From Candidatus Binatia bacterium (GTDB lineage Bacteria > Desulfobacterota > Binatia > UBA12015): DNA of 64,000 nucleotides. The notes under the pieces are model-generated. The model saw nothing but the letters and a program-made list of their open reading frames with translations. It did no database searches and was not told where the DNA came from. The stretch lies in NCBI GenBank assembly GCA_029248525.1, contig JAQWJE010000049.1:613836-677835 (forward strand). The letters are read 5' to 3'. Both the position numbers and the translations under genes were made by a program. Positions within the stretch are counted from its first letter, which is position 1. Each line of letters begins with the position of its first letter. Shown piece after piece: positions 1-8,593 of this stretch.

Positions 1-477
1 GTCGGGCCGACCGTCGCGGATGCTTCCGAAGAGCTTTATGCGCGGACGATGGACGTCTGTCTGGGGAGTGTGTTTCGGATTTGCCGAGCCGCCTATCCGC
101 ACTTGAAGGCGAGCGAATCTGCTTCGGTGATCAACTTCGCTTCGAGTGCCGGTAGTGAGGGAATGGCCGGCAACGCGGTTTATGCTGCAGCGAAAGAAGG
201 AATCCGGGGACTGAGCCGATCGCTGGCGCTCGAGTGGGGACGCGACGGTATTCGAGTGAATATGATCCGCCCGATCGCGTTGTCTCCAAGTATGGCGGGG
301 TGGGCGGAGGCCTATCCGAAGGTAGCGGCGGCGCAGGCGGCGATGATCCCCCTGCGACGCTTCGGAGATTGTGATGCTGATATTGCGCCAGTCGCGGTAT
401 TTCTCGCGAGTGAAGAAGCGCGCTATTTGACGGCGGTGACGCTCCCGGTAGACGGTGGCGGCGGTAAGGAGCGATAA
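1..477 (+). CDS. Short-chain dehydrogenase/reductase, 5' end missing
   Basis: The reading frame is open from base 1, so the gene starts outside the window; 158 residues remain. They show the catalytic YxxxK as YAAAK, the preceding Ser strand (INFASSAG) and a C-terminal VDGGGG, all standard for classical SDR enzymes, which are NAD(P)-dependent alcohol/ketone oxidoreductases. The TGxxxGIG cofactor loop lies upstream and is not visible. The ATG at 49 is internal, because SDR-like sequence precedes it. One base separates its TAA from the next ATG, so it is probably cotranscribed with the luciferase-like oxidoreductase. The substrate cannot be told. Confidence 0.85.
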   Translation, partial: VGPTVADASEELYARTMDVCLGSVFRICRAAYPHLKASESASVINFASSAGSEGMAGNAVYAAAKEGIRGLSRSLALEWGRDGIRVNMIRPIALSPSMAGWAEAYPKVAAAQAAMIPLRRFGDCDADIAPVAVFLASEEARYLTAVTLPVDGGGGKER

Positions 478-478
478 G

Positions 479-1603
479 ATGCGGGGAGTAACGGTTGGCT
501 ATCAGGACGGATGTCTGGCGCCATTTTTTGTCTCAAATTTTTCCGTCCAGCAGGCGGCCCAGATGGGTGCCGACACGATCTGGTTTCCGGACCATTTTAT
601 GGGATTCGCCCCCAAATGGCTTTGGACGCCGGAGCATACCGCTGCTGCCGGTGTGATTCACTCCGGAGACGCGCTTTTTGATCCGGTCCCTGTGATGGCC
701 CATATTGCGGCCAAATTCCCGGCGATGCAGATCGGAACATCGGTCACTGAACCAATCCGACGGCATCCGGTTTCGCTGGCCCAGACCTTCGTCACTCTCG
801 ACCATCTCTCGGAAGGACGCACCATTCTGGGGATTGGCAACGGCCTGCGCGAGAATACCGAACCGTATGGTCTCCCCTCCCGGATGCGAGTGGCCCGATT
901 GGAAGAGGCTCTCGAGGTCTTGCAACTACTTTTTGCGAGCGAGGGAAAGCCGCTCGAGTATTCGGGTCGCTACTATCAACTCGATGGAGCGGTTTTTGAT
1001 TTGCCGCTTTGGGAGGGTCGTCCGCCCCCGGTCTATATCGGCTCCCACGCACCCCGCATGCTGGGGCTCACAGGGCGATACGGCGATGGCTGGTTGCCCG
1101 GTCAGCCAGTGGATGCCGAGGAGTATGCGCGGCGTCTACAGGTGATCCACGCAGCAGGTGAGGATGCGGGCCGCTCGATGAAACACTTCATGGCGACTCA
1201 GACCATGCTTCTGGTTCTGGGTGATGACCGAGGTCCCGTGATCGAGCAGGCGATGCAAAGTCTCTACGTTGCCTACAATACACTGGGCCTCGCGGGCGCC
1301 GTATGGCGCAAGCACGGACTGGACCATCCGATGGGCGACGATTTCGCCGGACAAATCGAGTTGGTCCCGGCCGCGACTCCTCGTGAGTTGGTCGAGACAG
1401 CGATGGAGCGTATGACGCCGGAATTGCTTCTGGAGCAATATTATTTCGGTTCTCCGGATCAGATTGCCGATGCCGTCGCCCCGCTCGTGGACGCCGGTTG
1501 TCGCCATTTCGTGCTGGCGAATATGGGAGGGAATTTCACCGGCCGTGGTTCTGCCGATTTTGCTTCGATGGCCACCTTGACCGAGCGTCTCAAAAATATG
1601 TGA
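479..1603 (+). CDS. Luciferase-like monooxygenase family, probably F420-dependent oxidoreductase
   Basis: A 374-residue TIM-barrel protein of the bacterial luciferase-like (LLM) superfamily. The run GTSVTEPIRRHPVSLAQT and the following LGIGNG strand match the F420-dependent subgroup better than the FMN monooxygenases. Such enzymes carry out hydride transfer with coenzyme F420 or reduced flavin on varied small molecules. I chose ATG 479, one base after the SDR stop, over an in-frame start at 455 because the family homology begins at MRGVTVGYQ. The coupling to an SDR suggests stepwise oxidation of one substrate. F420 dependence is inferred from family resemblance only. Confidence 0.82.
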   Translation: MRGVTVGYQDGCLAPFFVSNFSVQQAAQMGADTIWFPDHFMGFAPKWLWTPEHTAAAGVIHSGDALFDPVPVMAHIAAKFPAMQIGTSVTEPIRRHPVSLAQTFVTLDHLSEGRTILGIGNGLRENTEPYGLPSRMRVARLEEALEVLQLLFASEGKPLEYSGRYYQLDGAVFDLPLWEGRPPPVYIGSHAPRMLGLTGRYGDGWLPGQPVDAEEYARRLQVIHAAGEDAGRSMKHFMATQTMLLVLGDDRGPVIEQAMQSLYVAYNTLGLAGAVWRKHGLDHPMGDDFAGQIELVPAATPRELVETAMERMTPELLLEQYYFGSPDQIADAVAPLVDAGCRHFVLANMGGNFTGRGSADFASMATLTERLKNM

Positions 1604-3032: not shown

Positions 3033-3175
3033 ATGACCCTCCGGTCGCCGTCCTAGCACGGGTTGTCCCGCAAGCGGAAAGGCTGGCAAGGGGATGGGGG
3101 GAAACATGCAGATGCAAAGGAAGATTTGCGGACTGGATGACGGATGAGGTCGTTCACGCTACGACAAGAATGCTG

Positions 3176-4012
3176 ATGAAGAAAATCGCATGCCTGATGC
3201 TGGCGCTGGCAATTCCGTTGACAGCAGAGGCACTTCCCGATGATTCTCTGAATTTCCGCCGCGGAGGCGAAACGATCGTCTCGTTTTCGCGAGATGAAAT
3301 TGTCTCTCGTTGTGGTCGCGAGCAGATCACCGTGGCGGATCCATATTACGAGAAGCAGAAGACGTTCTACGCTACGTCGCTTTCTTGTGTTCTGGAGGAG
3401 GGGTTTGGCACTGCTCCGGAAGCGTGGGGTGACCGGGAGATTATTTTCCGGGCATTGGACGGTTATGCGCGATCGGCAACGGCCGAGACTCTTCGACGAG
3501 AGGGGGGCTTTCTCGCTCTGGCCGATGCGGGTCTGGCGGTTTGGCCCGAAGTCGCCTGGGCGCCTATCGGTCGCGAGAAAACCGATCCCGGACCTTTTTA
3601 TGTGATCTGGAACCAATCCGGTCAGCAGGACCCTCACCTTTACCCGTGGCCCTACCAACTGTCGGTGATCGAGATGAAGTCCGTCGTCGATGCCTACCCG
3701 CATACGGTTCCGAACGGCCTCGAGGCCAACCATCCGGCACAGCGCGGGCATGAGATTTTTCTTCGAGATTGTCTGACCTGCCACGCGATCAATGGCGATG
3801 GCGGTGTGGTCGGGCCCGAATTGAATCTACCGCAAAGCATTGTCGAGTATCGCGATGTCGAACAGCTCAAGGTTTTCGTTCGGAACCCGCAAGAATTTCG
3901 TTACACCAAGATGCCGGCCAACCCTCATCTTACGGATGCGGATCTCTCGGATCTGATCTCGTATTTTCAGGCCATGAAGGAACGTAAAAACGATCCGAAG
4001 GATCGCTCCTGA
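3176..4012 (+). CDS. Exported monohaem c-type cytochrome with N-terminal extension domain
   Basis: A 278-residue secreted protein. MKKIACLMLALAIPLTAEA is a clear signal peptide with cleavage after AEA. The C-terminal third is a cytochrome c domain with one CxxCH (CLTCH) and a downstream MPANP supplying the likely Met ligand. The approximately 150-residue N-terminal region (SFSRDEIVSRCGREQI onward) resembles the molybdopterin-oxidase-like extension seen in some proteobacterial cytochromes; I see no catalytic motif in it. Start choice is 3176, or 3170 two codons earlier. Its TGA shares one base with the ATG of the RibA paralogue, so the two are translationally coupled. It acts in the periplasm as an electron carrier. 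Confidence 0.83.
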   Translation: MKKIACLMLALAIPLTAEALPDDSLNFRRGGETIVSFSRDEIVSRCGREQITVADPYYEKQKTFYATSLSCVLEEGFGTAPEAWGDREIIFRALDGYARSATAETLRREGGFLALADAGLAVWPEVAWAPIGREKTDPGPFYVIWNQSGQQDPHLYPWPYQLSVIEMKSVVDAYPHTVPNGLEANHPAQRGHEIFLRDCLTCHAINGDGGVVGPELNLPQSIVEYRDVEQLKVFVRNPQEFRYTKMPANPHLTDADLSDLISYFQAMKERKNDPKDRS

Positions 4013-5103
4013 TGCCCGTCAGGAACCTGCCGGTGGTTTCCGGCCAGCTTCTGGTTCTCGGAGAGCGATCCCTGGCGACGCGATACGGAACTTTCGACCT
4101 CCTGATCGCCAGGAGTCTTCAGGACCAGAAACACGTTCTCGCATTATCGCGGGGTGATGTGAGCGGCGAGGAGCCCGTCCTCGCGCGAGTCCATTCCTCC
4201 TGCGTTACCAGTGAAAGCTATGGTGGCCGGGATTGCGATTGTGTGGAGCAATTGGACCTCGCTCTCGAGGCGGTTGCCAAACGCGGTCGTGGCGTCGTCT
4301 TCTATCTGATGCAGGAAGGGCGCGGGGCCGGCTTTCTGGCAAAGGCCCGTGACCGCATGATCGTGCAAGCCAGCGGGAATCGTACAGATACTTTTGAAGC
4401 CTATCAGGCGATGGGATTGGCCCATGATCTGCGCAGCTATGAGGAAGTGGGCTGGATGGCCGAGCTTCTCGGACTGGCGGCACCTCTGGAATTGTTGACC
4501 AACAACCCCGAGAAAGCTCGCGGCGTCGCCTCTTCCTCGGGGCGCCCGGTCGCTCGGACACAGTCGCTGGATGGCGAGGCTTCTCCCTGGAATCGTGATT
4601 ATCTTGCTTCGAAGTCGAGGTCCGGGCACGGCCTGGAAGATCCCGTTGGGCTCGATGGCGCGGTATTGCCGGAGCGGGTGGAGGCCTTTGATCCCTATTG
4701 CCTCCCCGGGCAGAGTCGCTTTGTCCGAGTCGCATCCTACCTCCTGCCAGTTCGTGAGGCCGAGGTGAGTACCGTTCACTGGTTTCGCCTTTACGCCTAC
4801 CTGGATCTCGAGGAGCGTTCGGCCAAAGTCCTGCTCGCCTGGCGCGAAGGGGCAAACGCGAAGCCGTTGCTCCATGTGCAGCCGGAACCCCTTCTGCAAC
4901 GGTTTCCCGAGAAGGCCATCGCGACGGATTCGTGGGAAGCCACGCGGGCCGGCATCACGAGCACAGATTCCGCGCTGGTGGGTTTTGTTCCGGCCCGGGG
5001 ATTTTTGACGACATTGGAGGAGGTTCCGGGAGATCGCGTCCTGATCGAGGAACTCATGCAGCTCCATCTGTCGCATCCAATGCGTTCGTCAGGACCCGGA
5101 TGA
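4012..5103 (+). CDS. GTP cyclohydrolase II (RibA) paralogue with Tyr-to-Arg active-site change and extra C-terminal domain
   Basis: A 363-residue protein. Residues 1-175 align with RibA, which opens the GTP imidazole ring and releases formate and pyrophosphate. The zinc cysteines are kept (C64, C75, C77, with the exact 11-residue spacing), as are QEGR (101-104), the D139/R141 pair matching E. coli D126/R128, and K168 in LLTNNPEK. The residue aligned with E. coli Tyr105 is Arg115. A natural substitution at this Tyr in a Streptomyces paralogue is known to stop the reaction at the formylated pyrimidine, so the product may be FAPy-type. Residues 190-363 match no family I recognise. The gene is coupled to the cytochrome upstream and the SIS-creatininase fusion downstream. 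It is not the housekeeping ribA by context: no ribB, ribD or ribE is nearby. Confidence 0.85.
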   Translation: MPVRNLPVVSGQLLVLGERSLATRYGTFDLLIARSLQDQKHVLALSRGDVSGEEPVLARVHSSCVTSESYGGRDCDCVEQLDLALEAVAKRGRGVVFYLMQEGRGAGFLAKARDRMIVQASGNRTDTFEAYQAMGLAHDLRSYEEVGWMAELLGLAAPLELLTNNPEKARGVASSSGRPVARTQSLDGEASPWNRDYLASKSRSGHGLEDPVGLDGAVLPERVEAFDPYCLPGQSRFVRVASYLLPVREAEVSTVHWFRLYAYLDLEERSAKVLLAWREGANAKPLLHVQPEPLLQRFPEKAIATDSWEATRAGITSTDSALVGFVPARGFLTTLEEVPGDRVLIEELMQLHLSHPMRSSGPG

Positions 5104-6929
5104 ACAAACCTCTGGCGGATCCGGCCGGACTGGCAACGGCTCTCGCCGAACTGCCCGGCGCGTTGCGGGAGGCAGCAGCACTTTCAATGCCTGTGGCGGA
5201 TTTGCGTAGCCTGGCGTTGGTCAGTCGCCGCATTCTTTGTAGTGGTTTGGGCAGTTCCTCGGCGCATGCTCGACTGCTTGCCGCGCAGTTGATGTCGGCG
5301 GGCGTGGCTGCCTATGCCTGCCCTCTTGGTGGGGAGGCTCCCGGGCCGGGCGATACGGTGGTGGTTTTCTCGCAGGGACTTTCAGCTTCGGTGCGTCGGG
5401 TGATCGGCGCTCTTTCGCCAGAAGTCGGGATTGTCCTGGTCACTTCAGTGGACCCCGACGATCCGGAGAGCGGTTCGCCGAACCGCCGGGATTGGTTGGC
5501 TGCAGCCGAGGATAATGGGCTGTGTCGTGTTCCGATGATGGGGGCTATGGAGTACGGGAGTCTTGTCCGGATTACGGGGCCGGTGACCGGTTATTTAACG
5601 GCGCTGCGTCTCGCCAATGCCCTCGGCGCTTCGTTTTCGATTCCCCTGGACGAGATTCTTGCGGAGGTCGTCGCGTGTCTGGATCCGAAGCGGGAGGGGC
5701 CGGGAGGCGAAATTTTTGATCAGGAACTCTCCTTGTTGGGGACAGGGATTCATGACGCCTGTCTCGGGAATCTTGCGCTCAAGGTCCAGGAAGGGCTGCT
5801 GCAGCCTGCACCGCCAATTCTGAGTGTGGACGAAGTCGCTCACGGCCCGTTTCAGGAAGCATATCCTCGACCACGGCAATGGGTCGTCTTTACCCAGCCG
5901 ACGTCGGGCCAGGAGTTGGAAGGCTTGCGGCGCCTTCGGGAAATGATCCCCACCTACCAATCGGTTTGCGAGGTTCATTCGGGTCTGGATTTCCCCTGCT
6001 CGATTTTTTCGCACGAGGTTCTCTGGACGCGAGCCGTGCTGGCCCATCGCAAGGTGCGGGGGGTGTCGACGGATACCTGGCCGGGTCAGGGCGAGGACGG
6101 ACCCCTATATGACTGGGGCGAGACGGCAGCACCGCCTGCGCCGAGGCAGCTGGCTCTTCCCGGATTGGACCGTTGGGCAAGCCCTGAAGTTGCCCGGCGG
6201 TTGGCTGACCATCCGACAGCGATAATCCTACCGCTCGGCTCGACGGAACAACATGGTGCTCATCTCCCGCTGGGAACGGATACGCGGATCGCAGAGGCTT
6301 TGGGCGAAAGACTGTGTCGTCGGCTGCCCGGCTCCTTCTGCCTGCCGACGGTTCCTTTCGGGATCGCCAGTGAGCATCTTTCTTTTGCCGGAACAATTTC
6401 GATCGGGGAAGAAAACTTTATCCGGTTTCTGGCGGATATCCTGAGCTCTCTGGCAGTGCATGCCCCCGCCGAAATCATGATTTTCTCTGCTCATGGCGGG
6501 AATGAAGCCTTTCTTGTCCGGAATCGGGAACGGCTTGAGGGTGCTGCCGCACCCGCTCGATTGTTGTTGGCCTCGATCCCGGAGCAGGTCTCGCAGCGGT
6601 TGGTTTCATTGGCGGATCAATCCGGGATTTCGGAAAGCGAGGCCGGCTGGCATGCGGGAGAGCTGGAGACTTCCATGATGCTCGAACTCGATGCCGCATC
6701 GGTTCGGACAGACCAAATGGCGCCGGGGCATCTGGACCTTGTTCCGCCCGCGGAAAAACTCTTTTACCCGAATCTGGCCGACCGTGTTCCCTCGGGTGTG
6801 GTCGGCGATCCCCGCAGGGCTGCGGGGATCCGAGCCGAGAGCTACCTTTCGGGTTGGGTCGAGGAACTCCTGAAATTCTATCGATCGCGTGCCAGTGTCC
6901 ACCATACGAAGGGCACGAAAAACGCGTAG
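5100..6929 (+). CDS. SIS-domain / creatininase-family fusion protein
   Basis: A 609-residue two-domain protein. Residues about 25-340 form a SIS-type sugar-phosphate-binding region (CSGLGSSSAHARLLA, VVVFSQGLSASVRR, VDEVAHGPFQ), like the isomerase half of GlmS. Residues about 370-595 are a creatininase-fold metal hydrolase: LPLGSTEQHGAHLPLGTD gives E383, H385 and D394; AHGGNE gives H465; HAGELETS gives E521. The family includes creatinine amidohydrolase, MftE of mycofactocin maturation and ArfB, the archaeal FAPy deformylase. The ATG at 5100 overlaps the RibA-paralogue stop by 4 bases, so the two are coupled. I infer the hydrolase half removes the formyl group left by the RibA paralogue while the SIS half acts on the ribose phosphate. 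The last 52 bases overlap the convergent membrane-protein gene. Confidence 0.83.
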   Translation: MNKPLADPAGLATALAELPGALREAAALSMPVADLRSLALVSRRILCSGLGSSSAHARLLAAQLMSAGVAAYACPLGGEAPGPGDTVVVFSQGLSASVRRVIGALSPEVGIVLVTSVDPDDPESGSPNRRDWLAAAEDNGLCRVPMMGAMEYGSLVRITGPVTGYLTALRLANALGASFSIPLDEILAEVVACLDPKREGPGGEIFDQELSLLGTGIHDACLGNLALKVQEGLLQPAPPILSVDEVAHGPFQEAYPRPRQWVVFTQPTSGQELEGLRRLREMIPTYQSVCEVHSGLDFPCSIFSHEVLWTRAVLAHRKVRGVSTDTWPGQGEDGPLYDWGETAAPPAPRQLALPGLDRWASPEVARRLADHPTAIILPLGSTEQHGAHLPLGTDTRIAEALGERLCRRLPGSFCLPTVPFGIASEHLSFAGTISIGEENFIRFLADILSSLAVHAPAEIMIFSAHGGNEAFLVRNRERLEGAAAPARLLLASIPEQVSQRLVSLADQSGISESEAGWHAGELETSMMLELDAASVRTDQMAPGHLDLVPPAEKLFYPNLADRVPSGVVGDPRRAAGIRAESYLSGWVEELLKFYRSRASVHHTKGTKNA

Positions 6930-7600
6930 TAGAGCTGATTGGGAATCACACGAACCGCCCAGCCGAAGTCCATACCGAAGCCCATGATCAAGATATCTGC
7001 GGTCGCCCAGAGCAGATAATACCCGGCGACAAATGCAAGAATAACGCGCAGTCTCTGCTGGTCGCCGGAGCCGGAGGCATGGGATCGGAGCCAGACGTTT
7101 CGCAGATAGAGCGCGACCGCGAAGAAGGATGTTTCGTAGATGAGCCACAGCATTTGCTCGGGCAGTTCCGGCCGCCATTGCCGCAATCCCGTATCGGCTC
7201 CGTAGGCGACCACCGGGACCAGCAGGGTCCACAGAATTGCTCGTCGCAGGGCGCGCCCGAAACTATCGGCAGGCCGGCCAATGCGGAAGACCAATTGAAA
7301 GACGCGAAGATCGCCCAGCAAGACAAAGGAGAGCATGACGCCAGTGCCGATATCGGTTCCCTGCCAGCCCAGCCAGCGACTCAGAGGCCCGGTGGCAAAG
7401 GAGTCCGCCAATGTCTCCACGGTCCAGAAAAGCATCCAGCCGCCGAGGAACGCGGTCATCGGCTGCGTGCTGGCGCGTCGATCTCTCTCGGTTGTGGAGA
7501 ACAGCAGGTAGGCTAGGAAGGCCAGAGGTAGAACCCATAGGGCCCAAGTCCCCTGCCACTCCGATTTGTAGATGTTCTGGAAAAATGGGCTATCGTTCAT
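6878..7600 (-). CDS. Multi-pass membrane protein, function unknown
   Basis: A 240-residue polytopic inner-membrane protein with about six or seven hydrophobic segments separated by short Arg-containing loops (for example WVLPLAFLAYLLF and VILAFVAGYYLLW). I recognise no named family. The start at 7600 (MNDSPFF) is preferred because sequence upstream is basic and unlike a membrane protein. Its 3' end overlaps the SIS-creatininase gene by 52 bases tail to tail, and its start is only 12 bases from the annotated start of the divergent dihaem cytochrome. By context it could be a membrane anchor or quinone-interacting partner for the cytochromes; this is guesswork. Confidence 0.65.
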   Translation of the reverse strand: MNDSPFFQNIYKSEWQGTWALWVLPLAFLAYLLFSTTERDRRASTQPMTAFLGGWMLFWTVETLADSFATGPLSRWLGWQGTDIGTGVMLSFVLLGDLRVFQLVFRIGRPADSFGRALRRAILWTLLVPVVAYGADTGLRQWRPELPEQMLWLIYETSFFAVALYLRNVWLRSHASGSGDQQRLRVILAFVAGYYLLWATADILIMGFGMDFGWAVRVIPNQLYYAFFVPFVWWTLARDR

Positions 7601-7612
7601 GCTGGAGCACCT

Positions 7613-8593
7613 GTGTTGAAAAAAATGGGAACGAATGACTCGATTGAAGACGCCAGGCCGGCGCCGAAGCATTTGAAGGGCTTGCCAGAACAGGTACCCG
7701 CTTCTTTGGGGGCTTGCCAGTTGGCCTGTCTGTTCTTTTTTCTTCTGCTCGCGTCCTGCAGCTCGCCGCCCTCGTCAGAGACGTCCTTCGCTGGCGGCAA
7801 CGCGACTCGGGGCGAGAAAGTGGCAGCACTCGCGGGGGGGTGCGGTTGCCATACGGAGAAAGCAGGTTCCCAGCTTGCGGGTGGCAAGGCATTGATAACC
7901 CCTGCCGGGACGTTCTTTTCGACCAATATCACCAGCGATCCGACGCATGGCATCGGTGCCTGGAGCGATCGAGAGGTTGAGCAGGCGATTCGTGCGGGGA
8001 TTCTGCCGGACGGCTCGATCGAGTCCCCCGCCATGCCGTACTACCGCTATGCAGGGATGTCTGATCAGGACGTGCGCGACCTGATTGCATGGTTGCGCAC
8101 GGTCGCTCCTGCCGACCGGAAGAACCAACCCGCGGAATCTCCGATTCCGGCACAGCGGTTGGTTTGGAGGATTTGGCAGGCCATTTTTGCGCCGTCGGTC
8201 GAGGCTCCGCTGGACGTTCCGCCCGGGCATCCCGACCGGGGGCGTTATTTGACCGAGCATGTCGCGATCTGTGGGGATTGTCATACGCCGCGGACGATTT
8301 TCGGTACCTCAAATACAGGGCTCTATATGGCTGGCGGCGATGATGTGGGCGAGACAGTGCCGAATATCACGCCGGACAAGCAAACGGGGATCGGCGATTG
8401 GGATCTCGAGGATATTGTTGCTTCGCTCGAAATGGGAATGCTCCCGAATATGGATAGCGTGCAAGGTCTGATGGAAGACGTGGTGGATGGCGTCGCCGGG
8501 GGGCCTGGATATGGCGCGGCAGATCCCGAGGATCTGCAAGCGATTGCTGCGTATATTCAGTCCATTCCCGCAATCGCCCACACGCCGGAGTAG
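7613..8593 (+). CDS. Dihaem c-type cytochrome lipoprotein, first haem motif irregular
   Basis: A 326-residue (or shorter) exported protein with a lipobox, LLLASC, after a hydrophobic stretch, so probably a lipid-anchored cytochrome. Two cytochrome c domains follow. The second carries a normal CxxCH (CGDCH) with a later PNMDS segment. The first has GGCGCHTEK, a C-x-C-H spacing one residue shorter than usual. The family resembles the dihaem cytochrome subunits that take electrons from membrane-bound dehydrogenases. The ATG at 7613 gives an unusually long 36-residue n-region and leaves only 12 bases to the divergent gene, so a start further downstream is likely; I could not fix it. MFS gene follows after 10 bases. 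Confidence 0.8.
   Translation: MLKKMGTNDSIEDARPAPKHLKGLPEQVPASLGACQLACLFFFLLLASCSSPPSSETSFAGGNATRGEKVAALAGGCGCHTEKAGSQLAGGKALITPAGTFFSTNITSDPTHGIGAWSDREVEQAIRAGILPDGSIESPAMPYYRYAGMSDQDVRDLIAWLRTVAPADRKNQPAESPIPAQRLVWRIWQAIFAPSVEAPLDVPPGHPDRGRYLTEHVAICGDCHTPRTIFGTSNTGLYMAGGDDVGETVPNITPDKQTGIGDWDLEDIVASLEMGMLPNMDSVQGLMEDVVDGVAGGPGYGAADPEDLQAIAAYIQSIPAIAHTPE

Follow-up and report, generated by a model that had tools for sequence, protein, structure and literature searches.

What would a creatininase-fold hydrolase joined to an SIS domain be doing beside an odd RibA? The window analysed here, a 64,000-nucleotide stretch of contig JAQWJE010000049.1 from a Candidatus Binatia bacterium, encodes such a fusion in an open reading frame at 5100-6929 (+ strand, ATG start, 609 aa). 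Its ATG shares 4 bases (ATGA) with the stop codon of the gene upstream, a GTP cyclohydrolase II (GCH II) paralogue that we call RibA', and the overlap noted in the initial annotation is therefore real. The surroundings are laid out in Table 1. Two further conserved genes, absent from the initial description of 5100-6929, flank the pair: a cytochrome c gene upstream and a convergent membrane protein gene that overlaps the 3' end of the fusion. The start codon of the cytochrome gene is uncertain, as its frame is open from 3008 and has in-frame ATGs at 3137, 3170 and 3176. An LLM-type oxidoreductase resembling F420-dependent ones is encoded near the start of the window.

Table 1. Features of the cassette, in window coordinates.
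Feature	Nucleotides	Residues	Strand	Basis
Cytochrome gene	3137..4012		+	Cytochrom_C Pfam, CxxCH, PruR homology, upstream of RibA' in relatives
PruR-like domain of cytochrome gene	3242-3706		+	
Cytochrome c domain of cytochrome gene	3737-3973		+	
RibA', GTP cyclohydrolase II paralogue	4012..5103		+	Pfam, fold match, Zn Cys triad
RibA' catalytic domain	4042-4575	11-188	+	
RibA' degenerate second GCH II half-domain	4696-5061	about 229-350	+	Internal repeat
Fusion, double-SIS (phosphosugar isomerase-type) domain	5100..6119	1-340	+	Structure and profile matches
Fusion, creatininase-fold metal hydrolase domain and C-terminal tail	6177..6929	Pfam 360-593	+	
Multi-pass membrane protein	6878..7672 (likely start 7600)		-	Conserved neighbour, hydropathy

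Parts of the cassette are present in 16 of 148 genomes of the host class. The order cytochrome, RibA', SIS-creatininase and convergent membrane protein is found in 12 of these carriers, and in the other four the locus is interrupted by contig ends. In a sample of 395 genomes of the phylum, there was no match outside the host class; the SIS profile and the membrane-protein profile each hit three, all belonging to that class. The fusion and its RibA-like partner recur in further genera and families at 36-44% identity across the fusion, so their pairing is not due to chance. The objection anticipated in the initial annotation, that the pair might be confined to this genome, falls away since it is conserved beyond it. 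The cytochrome gene is kept upstream of RibA' in relatives, and the membrane protein gene adjoins the fusion in all 12 uncut loci and also in loci L020 and L060.

RibA' is recognizably a GCH II by Pfam (115.9 bits against a cut-off of 23.3) and falls short of the TIGR00505 equivalog (122.8 bits; cut-off 205.85). In a fold search spanning residues 10-213, it matches E. coli GCH II at Z 18.4 and 38% identity versus Z 13.2 and 18% for UTP cyclohydrolase. Like RibA, it has the zinc triad (C64, C75 and C77) and the catalytic Asp and Arg (the D126/R128 equivalents), all invariant in 12/12 RibA' sequences. It also departs from RibA. The position of E. coli Tyr105 is Arg in 15/15 RibA' sequences, whereas it is Tyr in all six canonical RibA of the class and in E. 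coli RibA. There are changes near the active site, with HSS for HSE, EAY for EAN and a 3-residue insertion. Finally, there is a degenerate second domain, detected as an internal repeat (hhalign E 1.5e-5) and as second GCH II Pfam stretches in RibA' of four genomes. In RibA, Tyr105 is a switch residue that completes deformylation, and a study of a Streptomyces GCH II reportedly bears on the meaning of that switch. Because Arg replaces it, RibA' should stop at the formylated pyrimidine, FAPy.

The creatininase half of the fusion matches PF02633 over residues 360-593 (177.2 bits; cut-off 31.3), as do 10/10 fusion members above cut-off, and Foldseek matches it to creatininase at E 2.3e-10. The five predicted ligands, E383, H385, D394, H465 and E521, which we take to be of the creatininase metal-binding type, are all present as first reported and are kept in 12/12 full-length fusions (10 in a first alignment plus L058 and L059). 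The initial annotation also suggested a FAPy deformylase by reference to archaeal ArfB. The lost switch tyrosine of RibA' fits that activity; by sequence, the domain itself is not ArfB-like. It has the creatininase fold and metal-site pattern of ArfB but scores 13.6 bits against the ArfB model NF033501 (cut-off 180), and ArfB follows the unrelated GCH III. The nearest NCBIfam model is MftE, TIGR03964, at 127.8 bits (cut-off 172). Bacteria are known to have a FAPy deformylase of the creatininase family, the formamidase BrbF of Sinorhizobium meliloti (SMc02977; PMC9478397). BrbF resembles the fusion in its family and in the proposed deformylation of FAPy next to a GCH II-type step; it differs in that the passages on it do not describe an SIS fusion and in serving riboflavin.

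The SIS half is larger than the initial annotation implied. In the AlphaFold model of the fusion (mean pLDDT 76, pTM 0.53), residues 6-324 match the isomerase domain of GlmS and the NagB-II deaminases by VIA-align (best match Z 25.6, 3.0 A, 301 residues), and since the match takes in that whole domain, the region is a double SIS. A profile match to phosphosugar isomerases has E 0.0014. Pfam SIS is not listed for the 10 fusion members at E<=5; HMMER filters drop weak matches. Residues G49, G51, S53, S91, Q92, E231 and H248 are kept in 12/12 fusions. In a weak profile alignment, E231 and H248 fall on a Glu and a His of GlcN6P deaminase (2cb0), and they presumably correspond to E488 and H504, which we take to be catalytic in GlmS. 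Comparing the SIS alignment by hhalign with GlmS of E. coli as a single sequence yielded nothing usable. The fusion shares the double-SIS fold and the placement of Glu and His with GlmS and NagB-II, but unlike GlmS, it has no glutaminase domain, has WPGxG in place of the C-terminal Lys603 motif and carries the creatininase domain. Fifteen weak SIS matches, at first taken for GlmS, proved otherwise: of three inspected by eye, two look like PfkB-SIS fusions and one is unrelated.

The cytochrome begins with a hydrophobic N-terminus that is likely an export signal. Both the Cytochrom_C Pfam domain and CxxCH are found in 12/12 members. The domain at its N-terminus shows homology along its length to the periplasmic pterin-binding protein PruR, with hhalign values of 94.0 and 95.1% against 8 homologues, where 11 controls all gave <= 0.5%; by PDB search alone, PruR appears at E 0.45 and 0.69. 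The likeness extends to the export signal. In contrast, PruR itself is a free-standing protein (about 170 aa) whose gene shares a two-gene operon with that of a DcpA or DTB regulator, and regulators of those types are not among the conserved neighbours here, which are RibA', the fusion and the membrane protein. Since C59 is near-invariant in the PruR-like domain, the ligand may instead be molybdopterin. Homologues of the cytochrome occur in 15 Proteobacterial records, and in four neighbourhoods (one annotated, three read by eye after crude gene calling), the surrounding genes had no evident pterin link. The membrane protein has 4-7 hydrophobic segments by simple hydropathy among 11 members and matches no Pfam family above cut-off.

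One genome, G012, bears on the product. It lacks RibA' and the SIS-creatininase, and adjoining its cytochrome and membrane genes is a paralogue of FolE, GTP cyclohydrolase I (136 bits; cut-off 27), with the zinc motifs CAHH and HLCM. This exchange is a single case; five other genomes of the class carry the cytochrome but not the fusion, and a search around it turned up no FolE. We considered whether the cassette replaces FolE for folate, but this is unlikely because a FolE was detected in 36 of the 39 genomes. Among the remaining three is one cassette genome, G006, a draft in 400 contigs.

The reading we lean towards, and only tentatively, is that this is a dedicated cassette that makes and uses a pterin, in which RibA', the deformylase and the SIS isomerase would between them do the work of GTP cyclohydrolase I. 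RibA' would open GTP, remove pyrophosphate and stop at FAPy, and the creatininase domain would then take off the formyl group. The double SIS would convert the ribosyl-5-phosphate amine from aldose to ketose (an Amadori rearrangement); ring closure of the 5-amino group on that ketone could then yield a dihydroneopterin-monophosphate-type pterin. The periplasmic PruR-like domain would bind it, and the cytochrome and its membrane partner may use or sense its redox state. We infer each chemical step, the Amadori/SIS step most of all, as well as pterin export and what the membrane protein does. The cassette would be equivalent to FolE in output but differs in being built of unrelated proteins with three activities in place of a single enzyme.

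Several observations support this pathway: the shared gene order, the retention in RibA' of the zinc and catalytic residues with Arg at the switch position, the intact metal site together with the BrbF precedent, and the double SIS with its conserved Glu231 and His248. Counting against it are the single swap and the five cytochrome genomes lacking a nearby FolE, the Proteobacterial homologues outside any evident pterin context, the very low ArfB score, the replaced Lys603 motif and the FolE already present in nearly all the genomes. In addition, C59 leaves room for molybdopterin, and the sense given to the Tyr switch comes from general background on RibA. Where the initial annotation left the product as pyrimidine, pterin or deazaflavin-like, the PruR-like cytochrome and the one FolE swap favour a pterin, and no part of the cassette hints at a flavin or deazaflavin.

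The main competitor, which we consider unlikely, is a BrbF-like branch in which RibA' and the creatininase supply a riboflavin-type pyrimidine for flavin secretion or for FO/F420, while the SIS merely holds the ribosyl phosphate. The precedent of BrbF in Sinorhizobium and Brucella (PMC9478397) and the LLM oxidoreductase resembling F420-dependent ones speak for it. However, 39/39 genomes have other GCH II-domain genes, most with strong canonical scores, RibD, RibE and RibH are absent from the four conserved genes, and relatives do not keep the LLM gene beside the cassette. The PruR-like domain and the FolE swap also tell against it. The same two features would need extra steps if the fusion deformylated the RibA' product and then cleaved off the ribosyl, leaving a free pyrimidine that goes into another product or into GTP breakdown. 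FrlB-type SIS enzymes have deglycase action, sugar amines are substrates for some members of the SIS family, and the double-SIS fold suits either role, yet on balance we find this quite improbable. We would give slightly less credence again to RibA' taking another nucleotide, for example in a UTP cyclohydrolase-like reaction whose product the creatininase domain acts on; the HSS, EAY and insertion changes would suit this, but RibA' is nearer to GCH II than to UTP cyclohydrolase in both fold and identity. The nearest NCBIfam model suggests an MftE-like peptidase from a mycofactocin-type pathway, which is very improbable. We rejected it, as the score lies under the MftE cut-off and the mycofactocin radical SAM model exceeds its cut-off in 0/39 genomes.

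Stated more broadly, the pterin reading amounts to a route independent of GTP cyclohydrolase I, in which a GCH II-type enzyme, a creatininase-type deformylase and an SIS isomerase would supply a dihydroneopterin-type product to a pterin-binding cytochrome c acting as a heme-linked redox or signalling protein. We regard this form as somewhat more doubtful than the cassette reading itself. Most biological pterins, molybdopterin apart, are said to begin with GTP cyclohydrolase I (PMC13259868). In the open-licence literature, we found no paper combining an SIS domain with a creatininase and none on GCH II in alternative pterin biosynthesis. If true, a second, modular pterin route would clearly exemplify the convergent assembly of a pathway, the SIS-creatininase fusion would have a role, and a periplasmic pterin-heme partnership would become testable, with a bearing on what exported bacterial pterins do.

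Traces of the parts were also sought among plasmids. There, 355 records match the fusion, none with 80% coverage. The single long RibA match in the collection is a Pseudoalteromonas gene with no annotated creatininase or SIS neighbour; its switch state is ambiguous because Val occupies the place of Tyr105 and a Tyr follows one position later. The G012 membrane protein has no plasmid matches, and the G012 cytochrome matches 12 plasmid records.

RibA', a RibA-like GTP cyclohydrolase II (GCH II) paralogue, and the SIS-creatininase fusion belong to a cassette with a cytochrome gene and a convergent membrane protein gene. The initial annotation had paired the first two genes here, and on checking, the pair recurs outside this genome: 16 genomes of the class, this one included, carry cassette parts, and their neighborhoods were all compared by tblastn. 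The order cytochrome, RibA', SIS-creatininase, convergent membrane protein is present in 12 of the 16 (the window and loci L009-L017, L058 and L059); the other four loci (L018, L019, L020 with L061, and L060) agree with it, but end at contig ends. The sixteenth genome, G006, has its cassette parts split between contigs. In all 11 loci scored (L009-L019) the cytochrome and RibA' genes share 4 nt; in the window they share 1 nt. RibA' and the fusion overlap by 4 nt in the window and in seven of 10 loci scored, by 1 nt in two and not at all in one, where the start codons are our choice, L012 is omitted for an ambiguous start, and L058, L059 and L061 are outside the count. The next commonest neighbor is another cytochrome c gene, also found near L009, L010, L013 and partly L016.

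Coordinates of the cassette genes and of genes at other loci
Feature	Location	Strand	Remark
Cytochrome	3137-4012	+	PruR-like and cytochrome c domains
RibA'	4012-5103	+	
SIS-creatininase fusion	5100-6929	+	609 aa; start codon inside the RibA' stop (ATGA)
Membrane protein	6878-7672	-	
Other cytochrome c	7613-8593	+	
Lipid_desat gene, G012	L074:3434-4243	-	PF10520, 164 bits
Pseudoalteromonas plasmid RibA	L067:9028-10035	+	long C-terminal part
Aminobacter PruR homologue locus	L088:1-863		

Some match to the fusion protein occurs in 22 of 39 related genomes, in many of them confined to the creatininase part. A search of the 148 class genomes with the SIS profile returned 30 matches. Fifteen are strong (E 4.7e-95 or better; families f1, f4, f6, f8 and f11); the other 15 are weak (E 4e-6 to 7e-4), and none of the three weak ones inspected is a cassette member. 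Among 395 phylum genomes sampled, the SIS profile has three matches, all in the same class. Pairwise distances of the four cassette proteins correlate (r 0.78-0.93), as shared ancestry by itself would yield.

The proposed fusion overlapping a RibA-like gene is borne out by Pfam, structure matching and the ATGA overlap. The C-terminal part belongs to the creatininase family of hydrolases (Pfam, 177 bits; Foldseek E 2.3e-10). The Pfam SIS model has no match in the N-terminal part, which matches phosphosugar isomerases in a PDB profile search (E 0.0014 and 0.0015) and whose predicted model (whole protein, mean pLDDT 76, pTM 0.53) resembles the double-SIS domains of GlmS and NagB-II enzymes (Z about 25). 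As modeled, the SIS part comprises a complete isomerase domain. No published description of a SIS-creatininase fusion was found. At L043 and L047, proteins appear by eye to resemble a PfkB-type kinase fused to a KpsF-like SIS domain.

RibA' folds like GCH II (Z 18.4 to the E. coli enzyme, 1.5 A over 173 residues, versus 13.2 to UTP cyclohydrolase). All 12 RibA' compared share the zinc Cys triad and the counterparts of E. coli D126 and R128. RibA' very probably acts on GTP. The E. coli Tyr105 position holds Tyr in six of six aligned canonical RibA of the class and Arg in 12 of 12 aligned RibA' and in L058, L059 and L061, the exact placement of Arg being alignment-dependent because of a 3-residue insertion nearby. 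A Streptomyces GCH II paralogue with Met there reportedly releases FAPy, the formylated pyrimidine intermediate, and restoring Tyr is said to restore deformylation. RibA' probably stops at FAPy. Altered GCH II activities in Streptomyces are reported in an excerpt of PMC3509567. The predicted model shows a structured C-terminal extension, which by its alignment to the protein's own GCH II domain (hhalign E 1.5e-5, 87 columns, probability 80%) resembles a second, degenerate half of GCH II; second Pfam GCH II stretches occur in RibA' of four genomes, one under the cut-off. RibBA pairs at L062 and L063-L065 (G000:C14, G000:C49, G029:C12, G017:C293) seem by eye to have divided their functions: one copy retains the Cys motif of GCH II alongside a degenerate-looking N-terminal domain, and the other has a DHBPS-like half and a GCH II half lacking that motif. 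The Pseudoalteromonas plasmid RibA lies among glycosyltransferase, asparagine synthase-like and arylamine N-acetyltransferase genes, perhaps a natural-product pathway.

GTP cyclohydrolase I (FolE), as a single enzyme, takes GTP through ring opening, deformylation, Amadori rearrangement and ring closure. In the cassette, RibA' would convert GTP to FAPy, the creatininase domain would deformylate it, the double SIS would catalyze Amadori rearrangement of the ribosylamine 5-phosphate, and ring closure would give a pterin of the dihydroneopterin-monophosphate type. A GCH II-type enzyme stopping at FAPy needs a separate deformylase; this is ArfB in archaea and, in Sinorhizobium and Brucella, BrbF, originally annotated as a creatininase (excerpts of PMC9478397). 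The creatininase domain is a likely FAPy deformylase. That idea had been reached through ArfB; the metal site, kept in 12 of 12 fusions, favors it, and the ArfB model score (13.6 bits, cut-off 180) argues against ArfB itself. The domain reaches no other named subfamily (MftE, 127.8 bits, cut-off 172; creatininase, 85, cut-off 235; IolN, 47.3, cut-off 245), and the fusion, though not an ArfB, may act as ArfB or BrbF does. Amadori rearrangement is only a tentative assignment for the SIS step, and replacement of the GlmS Lys603 region in the fusion counts against the mechanism.

Of the pterin, pyrimidine or deazaflavin-like products first envisaged, we lean towards a pterin, because FolE adjoins the cytochrome and membrane genes in genome G012, the cytochrome has a PruR-like N-terminal domain, and PruR binds tetrahydropterins; none of the cassette genes speaks for a flavin or deazaflavin. 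G012 is an 87% complete draft from the window's family, with no SIS domain by profile search of the draft and two GCH II matches versus three in the window's genome. Its divergent cytochrome (E 1e-50) and membrane protein (E 2e-30) homologues adjoin, all on the same strand, one of three FolE matches, a paralogue scoring 136 bits (cut-off 27) with motifs CAHH and HLCM kept. The chance of FolE adjoining the cytochrome by coincidence is about 0.1%, given an estimated 6000 genes or so. This swap is a single case, which counts against the pterin reading; FolE was not found near the cytochrome, within the stretch fetched, in five of six class genomes having the cytochrome and lacking the fusion. Upstream of the G012 FolE paralogue, on the same strand, is a Lipid_desat gene, presumably of the CarF/Kua/plasmanylethanolamine desaturase type.

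Relatives of the cassette parts are known (GCH II, creatininase-type formamidase, SIS isomerase, PruR and cytochrome c), and we file the whole as a variant form of pterin synthesis with PruR-type use. A further point against is that 36 of 39 genomes already have FolE, which would leave the cassette a route for a special purpose; a pterin route independent of GTP cyclohydrolase I is the bold reading. Also on that side, the conserved cassette genes include no pterin reductase, phosphatase or exporter, and Pfam assigned no family to the membrane protein.

The likeness of the cytochrome N-terminal domain to PruR was guessed after the G012 result and before the comparison. A PDB search returned only two sequences at E<=10. 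Both are pterin-binding proteins, with E values (0.45 and 0.69) that fall short of significance by themselves. Against eight plasmid PruR homologues, hhalign gave 94.0% and 95.1% (E 1.5e-7 and 3.2e-8) over the whole domain, with controls (one reversed, six shuffled and four unrelated profiles) at <=0.5%. Tetrahydropterins, whose precursor is a FolE product, are bound by PruR in the periplasm (excerpt of PMC13259868). The cytochrome is likely to bind the pterin; a near-invariant Cys in the domain makes molybdopterin a possible ligand. Four neighborhoods of Proteobacterial cytochrome homologues showed no evident pterin link. The Aminobacter PruR homologue, one of those retrieved, lies beside and is divergent from an annotated 6-carboxytetrahydropterin synthase gene, a possible local source of pterin for PruR.
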